This document shows positions 45,149 to 51,194 of a stretch of 64,000 bases of DNA, one piece after another. Both the position numbers and the translations under genes were made by a program. The notes below the pieces were generated by a model. The model was given only the letters and a program-made list of their open reading frames with translations. It did no database searches and was not told the DNA's origin. This stretch comes from an uncultured Opitutia bacterium. GTDB taxonomy: Bacteria; Verrucomicrobiota; Verrucomicrobiia; Opitutales; Opitutaceae. The stretch is taken from assembly GCA_903839035.1 (NCBI GenBank), contig CAIMAQ010000046.1, positions 1-64,000 of the forward strand, written 5' to 3'. Each line of letters starts with the position of its first letter. The stretch's first letter is position 1.

Positions 45149-47953
45149 CTAATTTCTCCGGAAGCGCGGCCAACGGAGCAGGGCCAGCATGCCCAGCGCC
45201 GCTCCAAACCAGCCGCCCATGGAGCCCGCGCCGTTGCCATTCGGCGCGCTGCTCGAGCTGACGCCCGAGGGGGTGGACGTGCTGCCACTGCCGGTCGAAC
45301 CGCTGCTCGAACTGGAGCTCGTGGATCCCTGCCGGAGCGTGAGGGTCGTGACGACCCCCGCCGGCGTGACCTTGCGGATCGACGCGTTACCGGTGTCGGC
45401 CACGTAGAGATTGCCGGAGCCATCAATGGTCAGGGCCCGCGGCAGGTTGAACATGGCGCCGGAGCCCGTGCCATCCTGATTGCCACCAATCGCCGGCAGA
45501 CCTGCCAGCGTGGTCACCACGCCGGCCGGTGTGACCTTGCGAATCGTGCTGTTGCCGGTGTCGGCCACATAGAGGTTGCCGGCGCTGTCCAGCACGACGC
45601 CGTCCGGCTGGTTGAACAGGGCCAGGCTGCCGGCTCCGTCGGAAAACCCGCTGACGCCCTGCAAACCGGCCAGCGTCGTGACCACCCCCGCGGGCGTGAT
45701 CTTGCGGATGAGGTTGTTGGACTGGTCGGCAACATAGACGTTGCCCGCCGCGTCCACGGCCAGGCCAGCCGGATAATTGAACCGGGCAGCCGCGCCCGTG
45801 CCATCGGCAAAGCCCGACACTCCGGCCGAACCGGCCAGCGTGCTCACCGAGCCTGCCGACGTGATTTTGCGAATGGTGTGGTTCATGGCGTCGGCCACGT
45901 AGAGGTTGCCGGCGGAATCGATGGCGATGCCCAGCGGTCCCCCGAAGGTGGCCGCGGTTCCCACGCCATCGACGTTGCCCCGGATGGAGGAGGAGCCGGC
46001 AAACGTGGTCACGCTGCCGTCGGTGCCCACCCGCCGGATCATGGCATTGGCCGTGTCGGCGACATAGATGACTCCCGTCCCCGCTGCGACCACCCCGCCC
46101 GGTTGATTGAAGAGCGCGGCGGCGCCGGTGCCGTTACTCGTGCCCGCACTACCGCTGGTTCCGGCCAGCAGGGTGACGTCACCTGCGGTCGTGACCTTTT
46201 GCACGGTATCGCCCGAGGAATCACTCACGTACAACCCGTCGGGGCCCACAAACGTGATGCCCGAGGGATAGGAAAAGAAGGTCGACGCCGGCGGAGGAGG
46301 AGTCGGCGGTGGCGGCGCGGAGCCCACCACCAGCACCGCCGCCGAGGACGTGACGTTGCCGGCGCTGTTGCTGACCAGCACCGTGTAGTTGCCCGCGTCG
46401 CCGGTCGCGGCCGCCGCAATCGAATAGGACGCACTGGTTGCGCCGCCGATGGCCACGCCGCCCTTGCTCCACTGGTAGGTGGGCACGGGATTGCCGCTGG
46501 CCCCTACCGTGAAGATGACGGAGTCGCCCGCGGTGACCGTCTGGCTGACGGGCTGCATCGTGATGGAAGGAGCGGTATTGGCCGGCGGGGCCGGCTGCAC
46601 GGTGAGCGTGGCCGACGACGAAGTGGCCGAGCCGGCCACATTGGTGGCCGTGGCAGCGTAGGATCCGGCATCACCGCTGGCCGCCGCAGCGATCGTGTAC
46701 AAGGAGTTGGTGGCCCCGCCGATGGCCACGCCGCCCTTGCTCCATTGGTAGGTCGGAGTGGGTGTGCCGCTCGCCGCTACCGTGAAGGTGACCGAGCCAC
46801 CCGTCGTGACCGACTGGCTGGACGGTTGCGTCGTGATGGTGGGGGCCACGTTAGTCGGCGGCGCCGCCTGGACCGTCAGGGTCGCCCCGGACGAGGTGAC
46901 CGTGCCCGCGCTGTTGGTCGCGGTGGCCGTGTAGGTGCCGGCGTCGCCGCTGGCCACCGCGTTAATGGTGTAGGTCGTGCCCGTCGCCCCGCCGATGGCG
47001 ACGCCGCCCTTGTTCCACTGGTAGGTCGGCGTGGGATTGCCACTCGCCGCCACCGTGAAGGTGACCGGGTTGCCCGTCGTGATGGTCTGGCTGGACGGCT
47101 GCGTGGTGACGGCCGGGGCCGTGTTGGGCGGCGGCGCGGCCTGGACCGTCAGCGTGGCACCATTGGATGTGGCTGTACCCGCCACATTCGTCGCGGTGGC
47201 CGTGTAGGTGCCAGCATCGCCGTTGGCCACGGCGGCAATGGTGTAGGTCGTACCGGTCGCGCCGCCGATGGGCACGCCGCCCTTGTTCCACTGATAGGTC
47301 GGGGTCGGGGTGCCGCTCGCGGCCACGACGAAGGTGACGGAGCTGCCCACGGTGATGGTCTGGTTGCCGGGCTGCGTCGTGATCGACGGCGCCGTGTTGG
47401 CGGGTCCGCCGCTGCTGATGTTGAAGGTCACCGTGATCTTCGCGCTGTTACCGCCCGTGCCATTCAATCCATCCCAGGCTGTGACGGTGCAGGCCGTCGT
47501 GCCGACCGCGGTCGGAGTGCCGGCAATCGTCATCTTGTAGGGTGCGACGACGTTGACGGGATTACCGCCGGTGACACTCATGCCGGCCGGCAGTGGCGTG
47601 GTGCTCTTCACGCTCCAGGACTTGGGGTTGCCGGGCGCACCGCTCACCGAGATGCCGACGCTGAGGGCCGTGCCGGTCGTGCCCGTGACGGTGAAGGTCG
47701 AGTTGGCGGCGCCACTGGCCGGGGTGGCAGGGCTCACATTGAAGACGGTGGCACCCGCCACGGAATTGTACGCGCCCATGGCAGTGGCGACGAGGCTGGA
47801 GCGGAGAATCAGCGGCGCCCGTTCGAGCACGACGTTTTCCAGCAGATCCAGGACGCGCAGCACCGGGGCCGGCGTGCGCTGCAGCAGCATGATCAGCATG
47901 CCGGCGGGCAATTGCAGCCGATGCAAACGGCTGGAGAAAGCGGATGTTTTCAT
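45149..47953 (-). CDS. surface protein with Ig-like array, NHL propeller and C-terminal sorting tail
   Basis: 934 residues. N-terminus 1-70 is atypical, with a hydrophobic stretch about 48-67; then a putative Ig domain (about 70-180), four nearly identical Ig-like domains of 91 residues (about 187-550), a Pro-rich linker, an NHL propeller (about 563-870) with repeats of 55 residues (GNLYVADTGNSTIRKVTPAG), a Ser/Gly linker, and a tail with Gly, a hydrophobic helix (WFGAALGMLALL) and Arg-rich end, as in GlyGly-, PEP- or MYXO-CTERM sorting signals. It lies downstream of the DUF4266 gene by 55 bp on the same strand and is possibly co-transcribed. Likely cell-surface adhesion or binding protein. 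Confidence 0.85.
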   Translation of the reverse strand: MKTSAFSSRLHRLQLPAGMLIMLLQRTPAPVLRVLDLLENVVLERAPLILRSSLVATAMGAYNSVAGATVFNVSPATPASGAANSTFTVTGTTGTALSVGISVSGAPGNPKSWSVKSTTPLPAGMSVTGGNPVNVVAPYKMTIAGTPTAVGTTACTVTAWDGLNGTGGNSAKITVTFNISSGGPANTAPSITTQPGNQTITVGSSVTFVVAASGTPTPTYQWNKGGVPIGGATGTTYTIAAVANGDAGTYTATATNVAGTATSNGATLTVQAAPPPNTAPAVTTQPSSQTITTGNPVTFTVAASGNPTPTYQWNKGGVAIGGATGTTYTINAVASGDAGTYTATATNSAGTVTSSGATLTVQAAPPTNVAPTITTQPSSQSVTTGGSVTFTVAASGTPTPTYQWSKGGVAIGGATNSLYTIAAAASGDAGSYAATATNVAGSATSSSATLTVQPAPPANTAPSITMQPVSQTVTAGDSVIFTVGASGNPVPTYQWSKGGVAIGGATSASYSIAAAATGDAGNYTVLVSNSAGNVTSSAAVLVVGSAPPPPTPPPPASTFFSYPSGITFVGPDGLYVSDSSGDTVQKVTTAGDVTLLAGTSGSAGTSNGTGAAALFNQPGGVVAAGTGVIYVADTANAMIRRVGTDGSVTTFAGSSSIRGNVDGVGTAATFGGPLGIAIDSAGNLYVADAMNHTIRKITSAGSVSTLAGSAGVSGFADGTGAAARFNYPAGLAVDAAGNVYVADQSNNLIRKITPAGVVTTLAGLQGVSGFSDGAGSLALFNQPDGVVLDSAGNLYVADTGNSTIRKVTPAGVVTTLAGLPAIGGNQDGTGSGAMFNLPRALTIDGSGNLYVADTGNASIRKVTPAGVVTTLTLRQGSTSSSSSSGSTGSGSTSTPSGVSSSSAPNGNGAGSMGGWFGAALGMLALLRWPRFRRN
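45344..46267 (-). repeat. five NHL-type repeats of 165 bp
   Basis: The TCGGC in the antisense of VADT recurs at 45396, 45561, 45726, 45891 and 46056, an exact 165-bp (55-residue) period. Units encode a strand set ending in GNLYVADTGN..IRKVTPAG. A sixth, more divergent blade lies at the start of the domain. Confidence 0.85.
46304..47395 (-). repeat. four tandem Ig-domain repeats of 273 bp
   Basis: The motif beginning CCCTTG (inside the YQW(N/S)KGGV coding segment, antisense) recurs at 46461, 46734, 47007 and 47280, an exact period of 273 bp (91 residues). The units differ by scattered substitutions with no length change. Each encodes VTFTVAASGTPTPTYQW-type Ig strands. Confidence 0.85.
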
Positions 47954-48008: not shown

Positions 48009-48230
48009 TCAGTTGCAGCCGCAGCCGCTGCCACCGACCCCGCGGCCACCTGTGGCAGCCTCGCAGGAGAAATAGATATGCTCGAACATGGCGCTGTGCA
48101 GCGGGTCGCGATCCGGCCGCATCTTGGGGTCGGCCAGCGTGGCGCGTTCCCACGGCTGCACCGTGGTGCAGCCGGACAGCAGGGCGGTGAGGACCGCGAG
48201 GCCGAGGAGGAGGGTGAGTTTGGTCTTCAT
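48009..48230 (-). CDS. DUF4266 family mini-lipoprotein
   Basis: 73 residues. Signal peptide with a lipobox LLSGC (Cys21 would be lipidated). The mature part has VQPWERATLADPKM, the family core, and ends GGRGVGGSGCGCN, with Cys70 and Cys72. C-terminal Gly-Cys-Gly-Cys-Asn is, from memory, a constant feature of this family. Its ATG overlaps the stop of the TlpA gene (4 nt). Within an operon of DUF3570, ApbE and TlpA proteins it is likely a small redox-active or metal-binding lipoprotein; the function is not established. Only three non-lipobox cysteines are present (56, 70, 72). Confidence 0.85.
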   Translation of the reverse strand: MKTKLTLLLGLAVLTALLSGCTTVQPWERATLADPKMRPDRDPLHSAMFEHIYFSCEAATGGRGVGGSGCGCN

Positions 48231-48727
48231 GATTTTTCCTCCAGCAGGCGGGCGATTTCCTCGCGCAGGGCCTTCACGGTGGACTCGCCGTGGTAGCCGC
48301 TGTGCACCGAGCGCACGATGCCGTGGCGGTCAAGGAGGTAGGAGGTCGGCATCGCCGGTACCCGGACTTCCGAGATCAGCTTCTGGGCGCTGTCCCGCAC
48401 AGTGGAAAACGCCGGTTTGAACCGCTGCAGGAATTCCTCGTAGGGGCCCGCGGTCTTGTCGACGCTGACCGCCAGCAGGATGAAGCCGCGTGGGGCGAAC
48501 TCGCGCTGCAGTTCCGTGTAAGCCGGGAACGACGCCTTGCACGGGGCACACCAGGTGGCCCAGAAATCAACCAGCACCACCTGCCCGGCAAAATCGGGCA
48601 GCGTACCCTCCAAGGCATGGCCCGCGAGGGCGGGAAAGGGCTGGCCGGGCTTCACCTGGCCCGCGGCGGAGAGCGCGAGGACCAGGCCAAGGATGAGTCC
48701 TTGGATGAGTTTAGTTGTGTACGACAT
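48227..48727 (-). CDS. TlpA/ResA-like thioredoxin family protein
   Basis: 166 residues. N-terminal signal or anchor (LIQGLILGLVLALSAAGQ), then a TlpA-like thioredoxin fold: WCAPC (Cys60, Cys63) in FWATWCAPCK and the cis-proline in VPAMPTSYLLD (Pro127). Exported reductase that would keep periplasmic cysteines reduced. It overlaps ApbE by 17 nt and DUF4266 by 4 nt. The two cysteines of the DUF4266 tail are an obvious candidate substrate, by inference. No other cysteines, so no extra disulphide domain. Confidence 0.9.
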   Translation of the reverse strand: MSYTTKLIQGLILGLVLALSAAGQVKPGQPFPALAGHALEGTLPDFAGQVVLVDFWATWCAPCKASFPAYTELQREFAPRGFILLAVSVDKTAGPYEEFLQRFKPAFSTVRDSAQKLISEVRVPAMPTSYLLDRHGIVRSVHSGYHGESTVKALREEIARLLEEKS

Positions 48728-49682
48728 AATTGAAAAATCCCCGGGTTTGGTGGCGGGCGTCGGCGGTGAGGATGCAGCCTTCCGCGCCCATGGATTCCTG
48801 AATGAAACGGATGCCCTCGGCCGGCGGGAGGATGAAGGCCGTGGTGGACAGCACGCCGGCCTGCACGCAGGTCGGCGCGATGACCGTCACCTGGCGCGCC
48901 CCGTGGGCCACCGGGCGACCGGTGCGCGGATCCACAATGTGGCCATAGCGCACGCCCCCAATGGTGAACCCGCGCCGGTAGTCGCCGGACGAGGCCACCC
49001 CGCGATTGTTGATGGCGAGACTGCCCCAGCAGGCATCGCCGGGCCGCACCGGATCCTCGAGGCCGATGTGCCAGCCGGGCTTGCCCGGGGCCGCGCCCAC
49101 CGCCCGCAGATCATGGCCGAAATCCACCAGCACCTGGGACAGGCCGTGCTCCTTCGCGAGCCCGGCCACCATGTCCACGGCGTATTCTTTCCCCCACCCG
49201 CCCAGGTCCAGGGCCATGCCCGCCTTCGGCAGGCGAACCCGGCCGCGCTCGCGTTGCACCAGCGGCCATCCGACCAGCTGGCGGGCAGCCTGGATCTCCG
49301 CGGCCGAGGGGATCCGCGGCACGGCCGCCTTGTAGTCCCACAGCCGCATCAGCGGCAGGGCCGTGATGTCGAGCAGTCCCTTGGTGAGGGAATAAATGGA
49401 TCCGCTCAGGTCGAGGATGCGCTCCATCTCCTCGTCCACCTCCACCCAATCACGCCCGGCGGCGCCATTGATCCGGCTGATCAGGCTGTCCGGCCGGAAC
49501 CGCGAATACTTCGCCTCGAACGCCGCGACCCACGCCTGTGCCGCCGACGCAAAGGCGCGGGAGGCGGGGGCATTGTCACCCGCAGATTGGATGAAGCACT
49601 CGGTGCCGAGGGCGGTCCACCGCACCGACTGCAGTGGGGTGGAACGCGGAACCAGCGCGGGGGCGGTGGTGGTGGTGGTCAT
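48711..49682 (-). CDS. ApbE-like FAD:protein FMN transferase, divergent
   Basis: 323 residues. ApbE motifs: ALGTECF, YSRFRPDSLISRIN, LLDITALPLMRLW, ALDLGGWGKEYAVD, ASSGDYRR, GHIVDPRTGRP. Departures from the usual sequence: GKE instead of GKG (E166), FGHD instead of GGD (H190), and AGVLST where the metal-binding Asp is expected (Gly276). No signal peptide is visible, although most ApbE proteins act outside the cytoplasm. ApbE attaches FMN to Thr/Ser of extracytoplasmic redox proteins through a phosphodiester. It lies 7 bp after the DUF3570 gene and overlaps TlpA. Catalysis could still occur with an altered metal site; otherwise it may be a flavin-binding helper. Confidence 0.82.
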   Translation of the reverse strand: MTTTTTAPALVPRSTPLQSVRWTALGTECFIQSAGDNAPASRAFASAAQAWVAAFEAKYSRFRPDSLISRINGAAGRDWVEVDEEMERILDLSGSIYSLTKGLLDITALPLMRLWDYKAAVPRIPSAAEIQAARQLVGWPLVQRERGRVRLPKAGMALDLGGWGKEYAVDMVAGLAKEHGLSQVLVDFGHDLRAVGAAPGKPGWHIGLEDPVRPGDACWGSLAINNRGVASSGDYRRGFTIGGVRYGHIVDPRTGRPVAHGARQVTVIAPTCVQAGVLSTTAFILPPAEGIRFIQESMGAEGCILTADARHQTRGFFNYVVHN

Positions 49683-49689
49683 CCGGAGT

Positions 49690-50877
49690 TCAGTGGATAA
49701 ATTTCAGGCCAAACGTGAACACGTTCGCCTTGAAATACGCGCTCTGCGGCGTGGCGTGGTCGAGTCCGCGGTCGGCGTAACGGTCATAGGCCGCGCTCAC
49801 CTCAAGCCAGCGCCGGACCTGCCAGACCACCTTCAACCCGACGTCCACCGACTGCATGTAGGCGAGGCGGTAGTCCGAAGAGTAGAAGGGACCATGGCCC
49901 GTACCCGTCTCCCCGAGCGCGCCGTAACTCGTGATGACGCCCGACCGGTCCGGGTCGACGTAGTAAAAGTCCGCCGCCGACTGCCGGTAATAGCGGATCG
50001 ACGGTTGCACCGTCACATTCTCGCCCATCTTCTGCAGCCAGAGCAGCGTCAGCGTGCTGCTGTTGATGCCGTAGGTGTCGTGGTAATACCGGTACGAGGC
50101 CTCCAGCGCGCCATTCGCGGCCTCGAAATTCCGGTTCAGGCCCAGGAACACGCTGAGCTTGTTGCGCTCCATCGGCCGGTTCTCGGGCACCGTGTAATAA
50201 GTGCCCGGGTCCAGATCGAGCATGGTCGTGGAGACGATCTTGTAGGGATCGCTCATGTAACCCCGCGCCTGGCCATAGGAGATGTTCGCGCTCACCGAGG
50301 TGTTGGCGTCGATGATCTGGTTCACGCCCACCAGGAAGTCGTTGCTCGTCTTGGGCCGCGTGATGGTCCAGCCGAGCTTCTCCTCGTTGATCCGGTCATC
50401 CGCCCGGCCGTAGCCGAGCAGCAGGCTGGTGTTCTTTTCGTTGAAATCGATGACCCCGTTCAGCGAGTACCCATTGGAGAAATAATCGCTCTCGCGGCTG
50501 TTGGCGAAACCCGCCGTCAGGCTCACGCGCTCGAACTGGTGCGAGAGCTCGGCGTTCCACGCCTTGCGGCGGTCGTGCATGTGCGCCAGCGGCACCTGGC
50601 CGCCGGGCACCGCGGCTTTTTCGCCGGTGGGCGTCGAACCGGCAATCGCGTCGATCAGGCCCATCACCTTGAAATGCGTGCTGGTCGAGAGATCCGCGTC
50701 CAACTGCGAGTAGGTCGTGTCCACCCGGATGCGGTTGTCGCCCTCCTGGTAGGACTGGTCCTTCACCGCCAGCGTGTCCTCAGCCCGGCCGGAGCGGGAC
50801 GTAGCGAGGAGAAGCAGCAGGCTTAGGATATGTGTGCGGGCGGAACCTTGCGGGGGCAGGATTGGGCGGGATTTCAT
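49690..50877 (-). CDS. DUF3570 family outer-membrane protein
   Basis: 395 residues. Signal peptide about 1-32 (SLLLLLATSRSGRA). Mature part: many alternating aromatic/polar strands (KLSVFLGLNRNF, GALEASYRYYHDTYG, SVDVGLKVVWQV), ending in a strand terminating FTFGLKFIH, typical of an outer-membrane beta-barrel. A start at 50877 fits the signal peptide; a longer frame adds 22 residues without support. First gene of the run with ApbE, TlpA and DUF4266; family members recur with these partners. Possible roles are an outer-membrane channel, anchor or acceptor of electrons. The 230 bp upstream (50878-51107) shows no repeat family and no clear promoter. Confidence 0.82.
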   Translation of the reverse strand: MKSRPILPPQGSARTHILSLLLLLATSRSGRAEDTLAVKDQSYQEGDNRIRVDTTYSQLDADLSTSTHFKVMGLIDAIAGSTPTGEKAAVPGGQVPLAHMHDRRKAWNAELSHQFERVSLTAGFANSRESDYFSNGYSLNGVIDFNEKNTSLLLGYGRADDRINEEKLGWTITRPKTSNDFLVGVNQIIDANTSVSANISYGQARGYMSDPYKIVSTTMLDLDPGTYYTVPENRPMERNKLSVFLGLNRNFEAANGALEASYRYYHDTYGINSSTLTLLWLQKMGENVTVQPSIRYYRQSAADFYYVDPDRSGVITSYGALGETGTGHGPFYSSDYRLAYMQSVDVGLKVVWQVRRWLEVSAAYDRYADRGLDHATPQSAYFKANVFTFGLKFIH

Positions 50878-51107: not shown

Positions 51108-51194
51108 TGGTGCCCGGGGTGGGGGTCGAACCCACATGACCTTGCGGTCGGCAGATTTTGAGTCTGCAGCGTCTGCCAATTCCGCCACCCGGGC
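51108..51194 (-). tRNA. tRNA-Leu (CAA)
   Basis: On the minus strand the 87-nt segment folds as a class II tRNA: acceptor GCCCGGG paired with CCCGGGC, anticodon stem GCAGA/TCTGC with loop CTCAAAA giving anticodon CAA, a long variable arm (GACCGCAAGGTC), T-arm GGGTTCGACCC, discriminator A and encoded CCA. The codon read is TTG. No tRNA neighbour; it lies between the DUF3570 operon and rsmE. A small hairpin GTGCGG/CCGCAC (51036-51062) lies downstream of it on the same strand and may terminate it. Confidence 0.95.

Follow-up and report, generated by a model that had tools for sequence, protein, structure and literature searches.

We analysed a window of 64,000 nucleotides from an uncultured Opitutia bacterium (GenBank assembly GCA_903839035.1, contig CAIMAQ010000046.1, positions 1 to 64,000 of the forward strand), which carries a compact operon for a DUF3570 barrel, an ApbE flavin transferase, a TlpA-like thioredoxin, a DUF4266 lipoprotein and a large secreted protein. 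Our preferred reading, held with modest confidence, is that the operon encodes a flavinylated outer-membrane electron-transfer unit, in which an ApbE without a signal peptide provides DUF3570 with flavin mononucleotide (FMN), the TlpA-like protein and DUF4266 supply thiols, and the secreted protein is the partner at the cell surface. The operon as such is the ordinary part of the system; the interesting parts are the subfamily to which its ApbE belongs, termed E/G for the pairing of Glu166 with Gly276, and the family of N-terminal leaders represented by the fifth protein (Table 1).

Table 1 Features of the operon, with positions in the window
Feature	Position	Strand	Details
DUF3570 gene	49690-50877	minus	PF12094, 212 bits; 395 aa
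Flavinylation-like motif of DUF3570, D76-A-I-A-G-S-T82-P83	50629-50652	minus	From alignments; variant of D-x-x-[S/T]-G-A-[S/T], acceptor Thr82 kept
ApbE gene	48711-49682	minus	PF02424, 247 bits; 323 aa
ApbE Glu166	49185-49187	minus	Stands where Gly is otherwise conserved (G170 of E. coli Ftp); always together with Gly276
ApbE Gly276	48855-48857	minus	Stands where a metal-ligand Asp is otherwise conserved (D280 of E. coli Ftp)
TlpA/ResA-like thioredoxin gene	48227-48727	minus	AhpC-TSA/Thioredoxin_8, Pfam and NCBIfam matches; 166 aa
Active site of the exported TlpA-like thioredoxin, W-C60-A-P-C63 (WCAPC)	48539-48553	minus
DUF4266 lipoprotein gene	48009-48230	minus	PF14086, 76 bits; 73 aa
DUF4266 tail, GGxGC70GC72N	48015-48023	minus	Invariant in relatives
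Leader-bearing secreted protein, fifth component	45149-47953	minus	934 residues
Leader domain (LLQRTP...GAYNSVAGAT), residues 1-73	47735-47953	minus	Hidden Markov model of relatives
Leader motif, N63-S-V-A-G-A-T69	47747-47767	minus	End of leader; flavinylation-like, also fits a signal-peptidase site

DUF3570 is the predicted ApbE substrate and flavin carrier, since the DUF3570 of C. luteolum is flavinylated by its cognate ApbE, at two [S/T]GA[S/T] sites (PMC8238504). The window protein has a signal peptide and its AlphaFold2 model is a 16-strand barrel (predicted local distance difference test, pLDDT, 90; predicted template modelling score 0.84), for which Foldseek returned outer-membrane barrels, at a general level only. 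The number of strands in the model is even, its even-numbered turns are of four residues or fewer and all of its long loops are odd-numbered. The strict [S/T]GA[S/T] motif is absent from the window DUF3570, which carries the relaxed form DAIAGSTP instead; its close relatives have DxIAGATP at this site. Thr82, the candidate acceptor, lies in the model at the end of strand 3 and the start of a long odd-numbered loop, and because the even turns are short and the odd loops long, the usual rule for outer-membrane proteins would place it near the extracellular rim. Judged by the alternation of side chains along strand 3, Asp76 and Thr82 both point away from the lipid in the modelled barrel, opposite the hydrophobic residues of the strand. 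With the flavin thus predicted to sit near the outer face, the DUF3570 system may become a concrete candidate for cytochrome-free electron transfer across the outer membrane.

The acceptor Ser/Thr is kept in all 117 DUF3570s that neighbour an E/G ApbE, 111 of them reading [DSE]xx[STAV]G[ASM][ST] and the other 6 being close variants. According to mutational work cited in PMC12052999, the acceptor is essential and the Asp dispensable, and changes of the Gly/Ala reduce the yield. A second DUF3570 class, Dxx[ST]SA[ST], comprises 12 gammaproteobacterial sequences, beside which the ApbE is either missing or canonical. We also observed giant DUF3570s of 904-920 residues (L255, 6082-8841; L263, 3366-6077) with at least two SGAT motifs, which are possibly barrels with several flavins.

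The window ApbE is modelled with high confidence (pLDDT 94.4) and superimposes on FmnB and Ftp structures with a template modelling (TM) score of about 0.88. Compared with the canonical Ser/His/Asp set it keeps the His, and the Asp has become Gly276. In E. coli Ftp this Asp280 contributes two ligands to metal 1, alongside Thr166 O, Thr284 and Asp283 (PMC4767422), and a 2025 review counts the equivalent Asp among the three conserved catalytic residues of ApbE (PMC12052999). We compared 175 non-identical ApbEs, taken from the clusters, from other genomic sites and from DUF4266-negative genomes. At positions 166 and 276, Glu is paired with Gly in 125 and the canonical Gly with Asp in 46, and mixtures of the two were not found; the remaining four are two truncated sequences, one K/G and one L/N. 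The E/G enzymes fall on one side of a single branch (SH-like approximate likelihood ratio 98) in a tree calculated without columns 166 and 276, and none occurs among the ApbEs of 32 DUF4266-negative genomes. Nearly all E/G enzymes retain the His that serves as general base and the Thr of the metal site, and the SGDY loop is kept as well. The E/G subfamily appears to be a new feature of this cluster, and our guess is that Glu166 takes over from the lost Asp.

For the location of the enzyme we scored a hydrophobic stretch of 10 residues at the N-terminus, ahead of the domain. Such a stretch is present in 6/125 E/G ApbEs, several of them doubtful, versus 108/142 DUF3570s and 37/43 TlpAs, and in 49 of the 125 at most 45 residues are available upstream before a stop codon. 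The window ApbE has seven codons between its start and the upstream in-frame stop and, by the hydrophobicity test and these frame limits, carries neither a signal peptide nor a lipobox. A hydrophobic stretch resembling a signal is present in the canonical ApbEs linked to DUF3570 (L238, L244, L265 and L266). As this stretch is almost always absent from E/G ApbEs while their substrate is exported, the simplest inference is that they act in the cytosol on the precursor, and the extracytoplasmic ApbE of a first-pass annotation of this DNA is accordingly not what the sequence points to. Flavinylation of exported proteins by ApbE is thought to be periplasmic; a signal-less clade together with a barrel substrate makes the passage of FMN-bearing chains through SecYEG testable.

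The thiol side of the unit would consist of the exported thioredoxin and of DUF4266, which has the lipobox LSGC and ends in SGCGCN, that is, in a CxC tail. An additional Cys is found in the DUF4266 of the window and of its congener L034, which have YFSCEA where nearly all relatives have YFSREA with Arg.

The first-pass annotation had described four genes in the order DUF3570, ApbE, TlpA and DUF4266, with 7-bp spacing or overlaps, the first of them an outer-membrane barrel, and a probably co-transcribed surface protein behind them. Pfam matches and coordinates agree with this arrangement and the barrel model with the assignment of DUF3570: 7 bp separate DUF3570 from ApbE, ApbE and TlpA overlap by 17 bp, TlpA and DUF4266 by 4 bp, and the fifth gene starts 55 bp past DUF4266 with no terminator-like site found between them on the minus strand. 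The surface protein is moreover a conserved component, as detailed below. A gene for tRNA-Leu (CAA), also on the minus strand, immediately precedes the operon (51108-51194). The window genome contains one ApbE, one DUF3570 and one DsbD_TM gene, the last on another contig and outside the operon. A search for FMN_bind proteins, which did not extend to DUF2271, gave none there, so that DUF3570 is the sole substrate of a known type detected in this genome.

DUF4266 is present in 45/286 genomes of the window's class, nearly always with the same neighbours, which argues against a chance grouping. The order DUF3570-ApbE-TlpA-DUF4266 is near constant in the flanks of the DUF4266 loci of the class and likewise in most of 80 loci from named genomes; gammaproteobacterial loci run TlpA-DUF4266-DUF3570-ApbE. 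The neighbourhood check suggested with the first-pass annotation, for which a majority of genomes having DUF4266 but lacking ApbE and TlpA was to count against a common system, did not show such a pattern, yet around half of the gammaproteobacterial clusters examined have no adjacent ApbE, while DUF3570 accompanies DUF4266 in 40/40 loci. Genomes that lack an ApbE in the cluster have an E/G ApbE elsewhere. (Alignment A1 opens with a query row that is a consensus of our own composition, used for searching only.) The gammaproteobacterial loci L229-L251 have the DUF3570 class with SSAS in place of SGAS, mostly without ApbE, and share recurrent neighbours (an SH3-like protein, a large lipoprotein and a small secreted protein, common to 15-17 loci); this seems to be a different type of cluster. 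Two copies of the cluster occur per locus at L052/L053 and L049/L050; in L052/L053 both copies lack ApbE, whose gene lies at another site with TlpA and a leader gene as neighbours.

The fifth protein has four immunoglobulin (Ig)-like domains, NHL repeats and a hydrophobic, Arg-rich C-terminus. Clustering of neighbouring open reading frames placed one family downstream of DUF4266 in 86/158 loci, a count that single-linkage on the Ig repeats may inflate. What its members have in common is a leader that takes up about 75 residues at the N-terminus (...LLQR(T/S)P(V)LR ... LGAxxSVSGAT) and is covered by no Pfam or NCBIfam model; behind it come an Ig-like domain and bodies that vary. A model of the leader alone finds it in 68 of the 86 loci of the Verrucomicrobia set with enough downstream sequence and, in a class-wide search, matches the window at 47738-47944 (E 4e-19). 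Strong leaders (E < 1e-6) are found in 40/45 DUF4266-positive and 0/241 DUF4266-negative genomes of the class (Fisher 1e-43; two weak matches at 4e-4 were discounted), and this strict co-occurrence marks the leader protein as a functional partner. It is a lineage-specific one, as the leader had no match in 42 DUF4266-positive gammaproteobacterial genomes or in five genomes of a divergent clade labelled in part as Kiritimatiellae. Many genomes carry one to four leader genes, some outside the cluster, and those of L328, L329 and L330 adjoin a displaced E/G ApbE with no DUF3570 there. The leader family thus represents a new protein domain, linked phylogenetically to the flavinylation machinery in a near-perfect way, and its proteins are probably either second ApbE substrates or cell-surface clients of the unit.

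The leader ends in a motif close to that for flavinylation, [HDN]-x-[VL]-[SATV]-G-A-[TS], which fits 111/133 leaders when the first position may also be E and the third is left free; the last position is Ser/Thr in 133/133. On this basis the fifth protein may itself be flavinylated, but [SATV]-G-A followed by T is equally a signal-peptidase I consensus. An apparent covariation between DUF3570 and leader at motif residue 4 (Ser/Ala/Val; 74/103 matches, shuffle mean 50, maximum 65) was rejected, and is not used as evidence, because a sister-locus comparison (Fisher p 0.21) explains it by kinship. At L045 (7828-12519) and L125 (5997-11063) the leader protein is replaced by a large secreted protein with an N-terminal CxxCH, cytochrome-c-like motif; the one at L045 recalls the exchange of flavin and cytochrome described in PMC8238504. 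The leader proteins of the window (45149-45240), L034, L049 and L057 end in a Gly-rich stretch, a hydrophobic helix and an Arg cluster, resembling sorting tails of the GlyGly-CTERM type, which other leader proteins lack.

Taken as a flavinylated electron-transfer unit, the operon would work as follows. With flavin adenine dinucleotide (FAD) as donor, the signal-less E/G ApbE would place FMN on Thr82 of DUF3570, most likely while the precursor is still in the cytosol and Sec has yet to export it, and the barrel would then insert in the outer membrane with FMN in its lumen near the outer rim. Electrons could pass from a DsbD-type thiol carrier of the cell to the exported thioredoxin and on to the CxC tail of DUF4266, which would hand them to the barrel FMN, and the leader-bearing protein would join as partner, second ApbE substrate or surface client. 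Our computations support the gene set, its co-occurrence, the motifs, the ApbE subfamily and the barrel model. Several points nevertheless weigh against the unit as drawn: we infer the flow of electrons from thiol to flavin, and the DNA bears on co-expression of the genes only indirectly. The AGST of the window departs from [S/T]GA[S/T] at two positions, and there is one motif where C. luteolum has two. The missing signal peptide of ApbE is a call by hydrophobicity rule rather than by SignalP, and a cytosolic route needs an FMN-bearing polypeptide to pass SecYEG, for which we know of no precedent. The activity of E/G ApbEs is also not assured, because an Asp counted as a conserved catalytic residue is lost. 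A bolder version, to which we attach low confidence, is that the cytosolic ApbE, with its Asp replaced by Gly and a compensating Gly to Glu change, flavinylates both the DUF3570 barrel and the leaders of surface proteins before export, creating a haem-free, all-flavin path from periplasmic thiols to extracellular proteins.

The leader motif may instead be the signal-peptidase I site of a long and unusual signal peptide, such that the leader targets surface proteins that are not flavinylated, and we regard this as quite possible, if short of probable. The motif fits the A-x-A rule and comes after a hydrophobic stretch, the bodies of the leader proteins vary and their genes often lie in trans, as with a sorting tag, the strict Dxx[ST]GA[ST] is present in just 17/133 leaders, and the residue match with DUF3570 did not survive the sister-locus comparison. 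However, signal-peptidase sites normally leave positions -2 and +1 free, whereas the leaders have Gly at -2 in 116/133 and Thr/Ser at +1 throughout, and leaders adjoin E/G ApbEs where DUF3570 is missing (L328-L330). It is unlikely, in our view, that the operon is simply an ordinary system of the published type, with a periplasmic ApbE exported by an unrecognised signal, a residue swap due to neutral drift and an unrelated neighbour as fifth gene. Its gene content does equal the set published in PMC8238504, E/G ApbEs often begin with a tail of 20-60 residues rich in Ala and Pro, and the four canonical ApbEs linked to DUF3570 have signal-like N-termini; but the two-residue swap is perfectly linked and of single origin in our sample, 119/125 E/G ApbEs lack the hydrophobic run, many in frames without room for one, and leader and DUF4266 occur together across genomes far more strictly than an unrelated neighbour would allow.

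The first-pass annotation had left a choice between a flavin/thiol electron-transfer unit and metal handling. Electron transfer remains the best reading, and the flavinylation published for C. luteolum (PMC8238504) makes DUF3570 the flavin carrier. That the unit serves ferric reduction or copper/zinc capture, with the Gly-rich CxC tail of DUF4266 binding metal, is an improbable alternative: the CGCN tail is invariant, and 25 published clusters include a VIT1 iron transporter (PMC8238504), but in the recurrent neighbours of the 158 loci, whose representatives were judged by eye with no Pfam scan, no family of metal transporters was prominent. We think it very unlikely that E/G ApbEs have given up flavin transfer for another role, such as FAD binding or chaperoning of the barrel. 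The loss of an Asp described as conserved in catalysis would suit such a change, but the His and metal-site Thr in nearly all of them, the SGDY loop, the gain of Glu166 and the retention of a substrate Ser/Thr throughout speak for an active transferase.

Our literature search for papers naming DUF3570 or DUF4266 found only the study of Meheust et al. 2021 in eLife (PMC8238504). It describes clusters in which ApbE and DUF3570 occur with DUF4266 and a thioredoxin-like protein, some having DsbD (227 and 221 DsbD clusters with DUF3570 and DUF4266) and others lacking it (316). The set had been proposed as the best candidate for an undescribed system, with DUF3570 and DUF4266 of no established function; both statements are overtaken by these hundreds of clusters and by the DUF3570 flavinylation and DUF4266 CxC tail reported there. 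The window operon shares with them the four families, DUF3570 as ApbE substrate and the CxC tail. It differs from them in having no DsbD gene (which only part of the published clusters contain), one relaxed motif rather than two [S/T]GA[S/T], a thioredoxin of the TlpA/AhpC-TSA type rather than PF13899, an ApbE of the E/G subfamily without a signal peptide, and a leader-bearing fifth component that we did not find in the accessible text. Compared with the canonical periplasmic ApbE/Ftp of E. coli, T. pallidum and V. cholerae, the window ApbE has the same fold (TM about 0.8-0.88) and the active-site His and Thr, but Gly for the Asp ligand, Glu for Gly, and no signal or lipobox. It resembles the cytosolic ApbE of Klebsiella pneumoniae fumarate reductase (cited in PMC12052999) in lacking a signal peptide. 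The substrate of the Klebsiella enzyme is cytosolic, however, whereas that of the window ApbE is an exported barrel. In conduits of the MtrCAB type a barrel is linked with redox proteins on either side of the outer membrane. The likeness is one of analogy, and flavin and thiols would here stand where MtrCAB has haems. Alongside these known systems, the E/G ApbE clade, the relaxed DUF3570 motif with its barrel model and the leader-bearing fifth component appear to be new.

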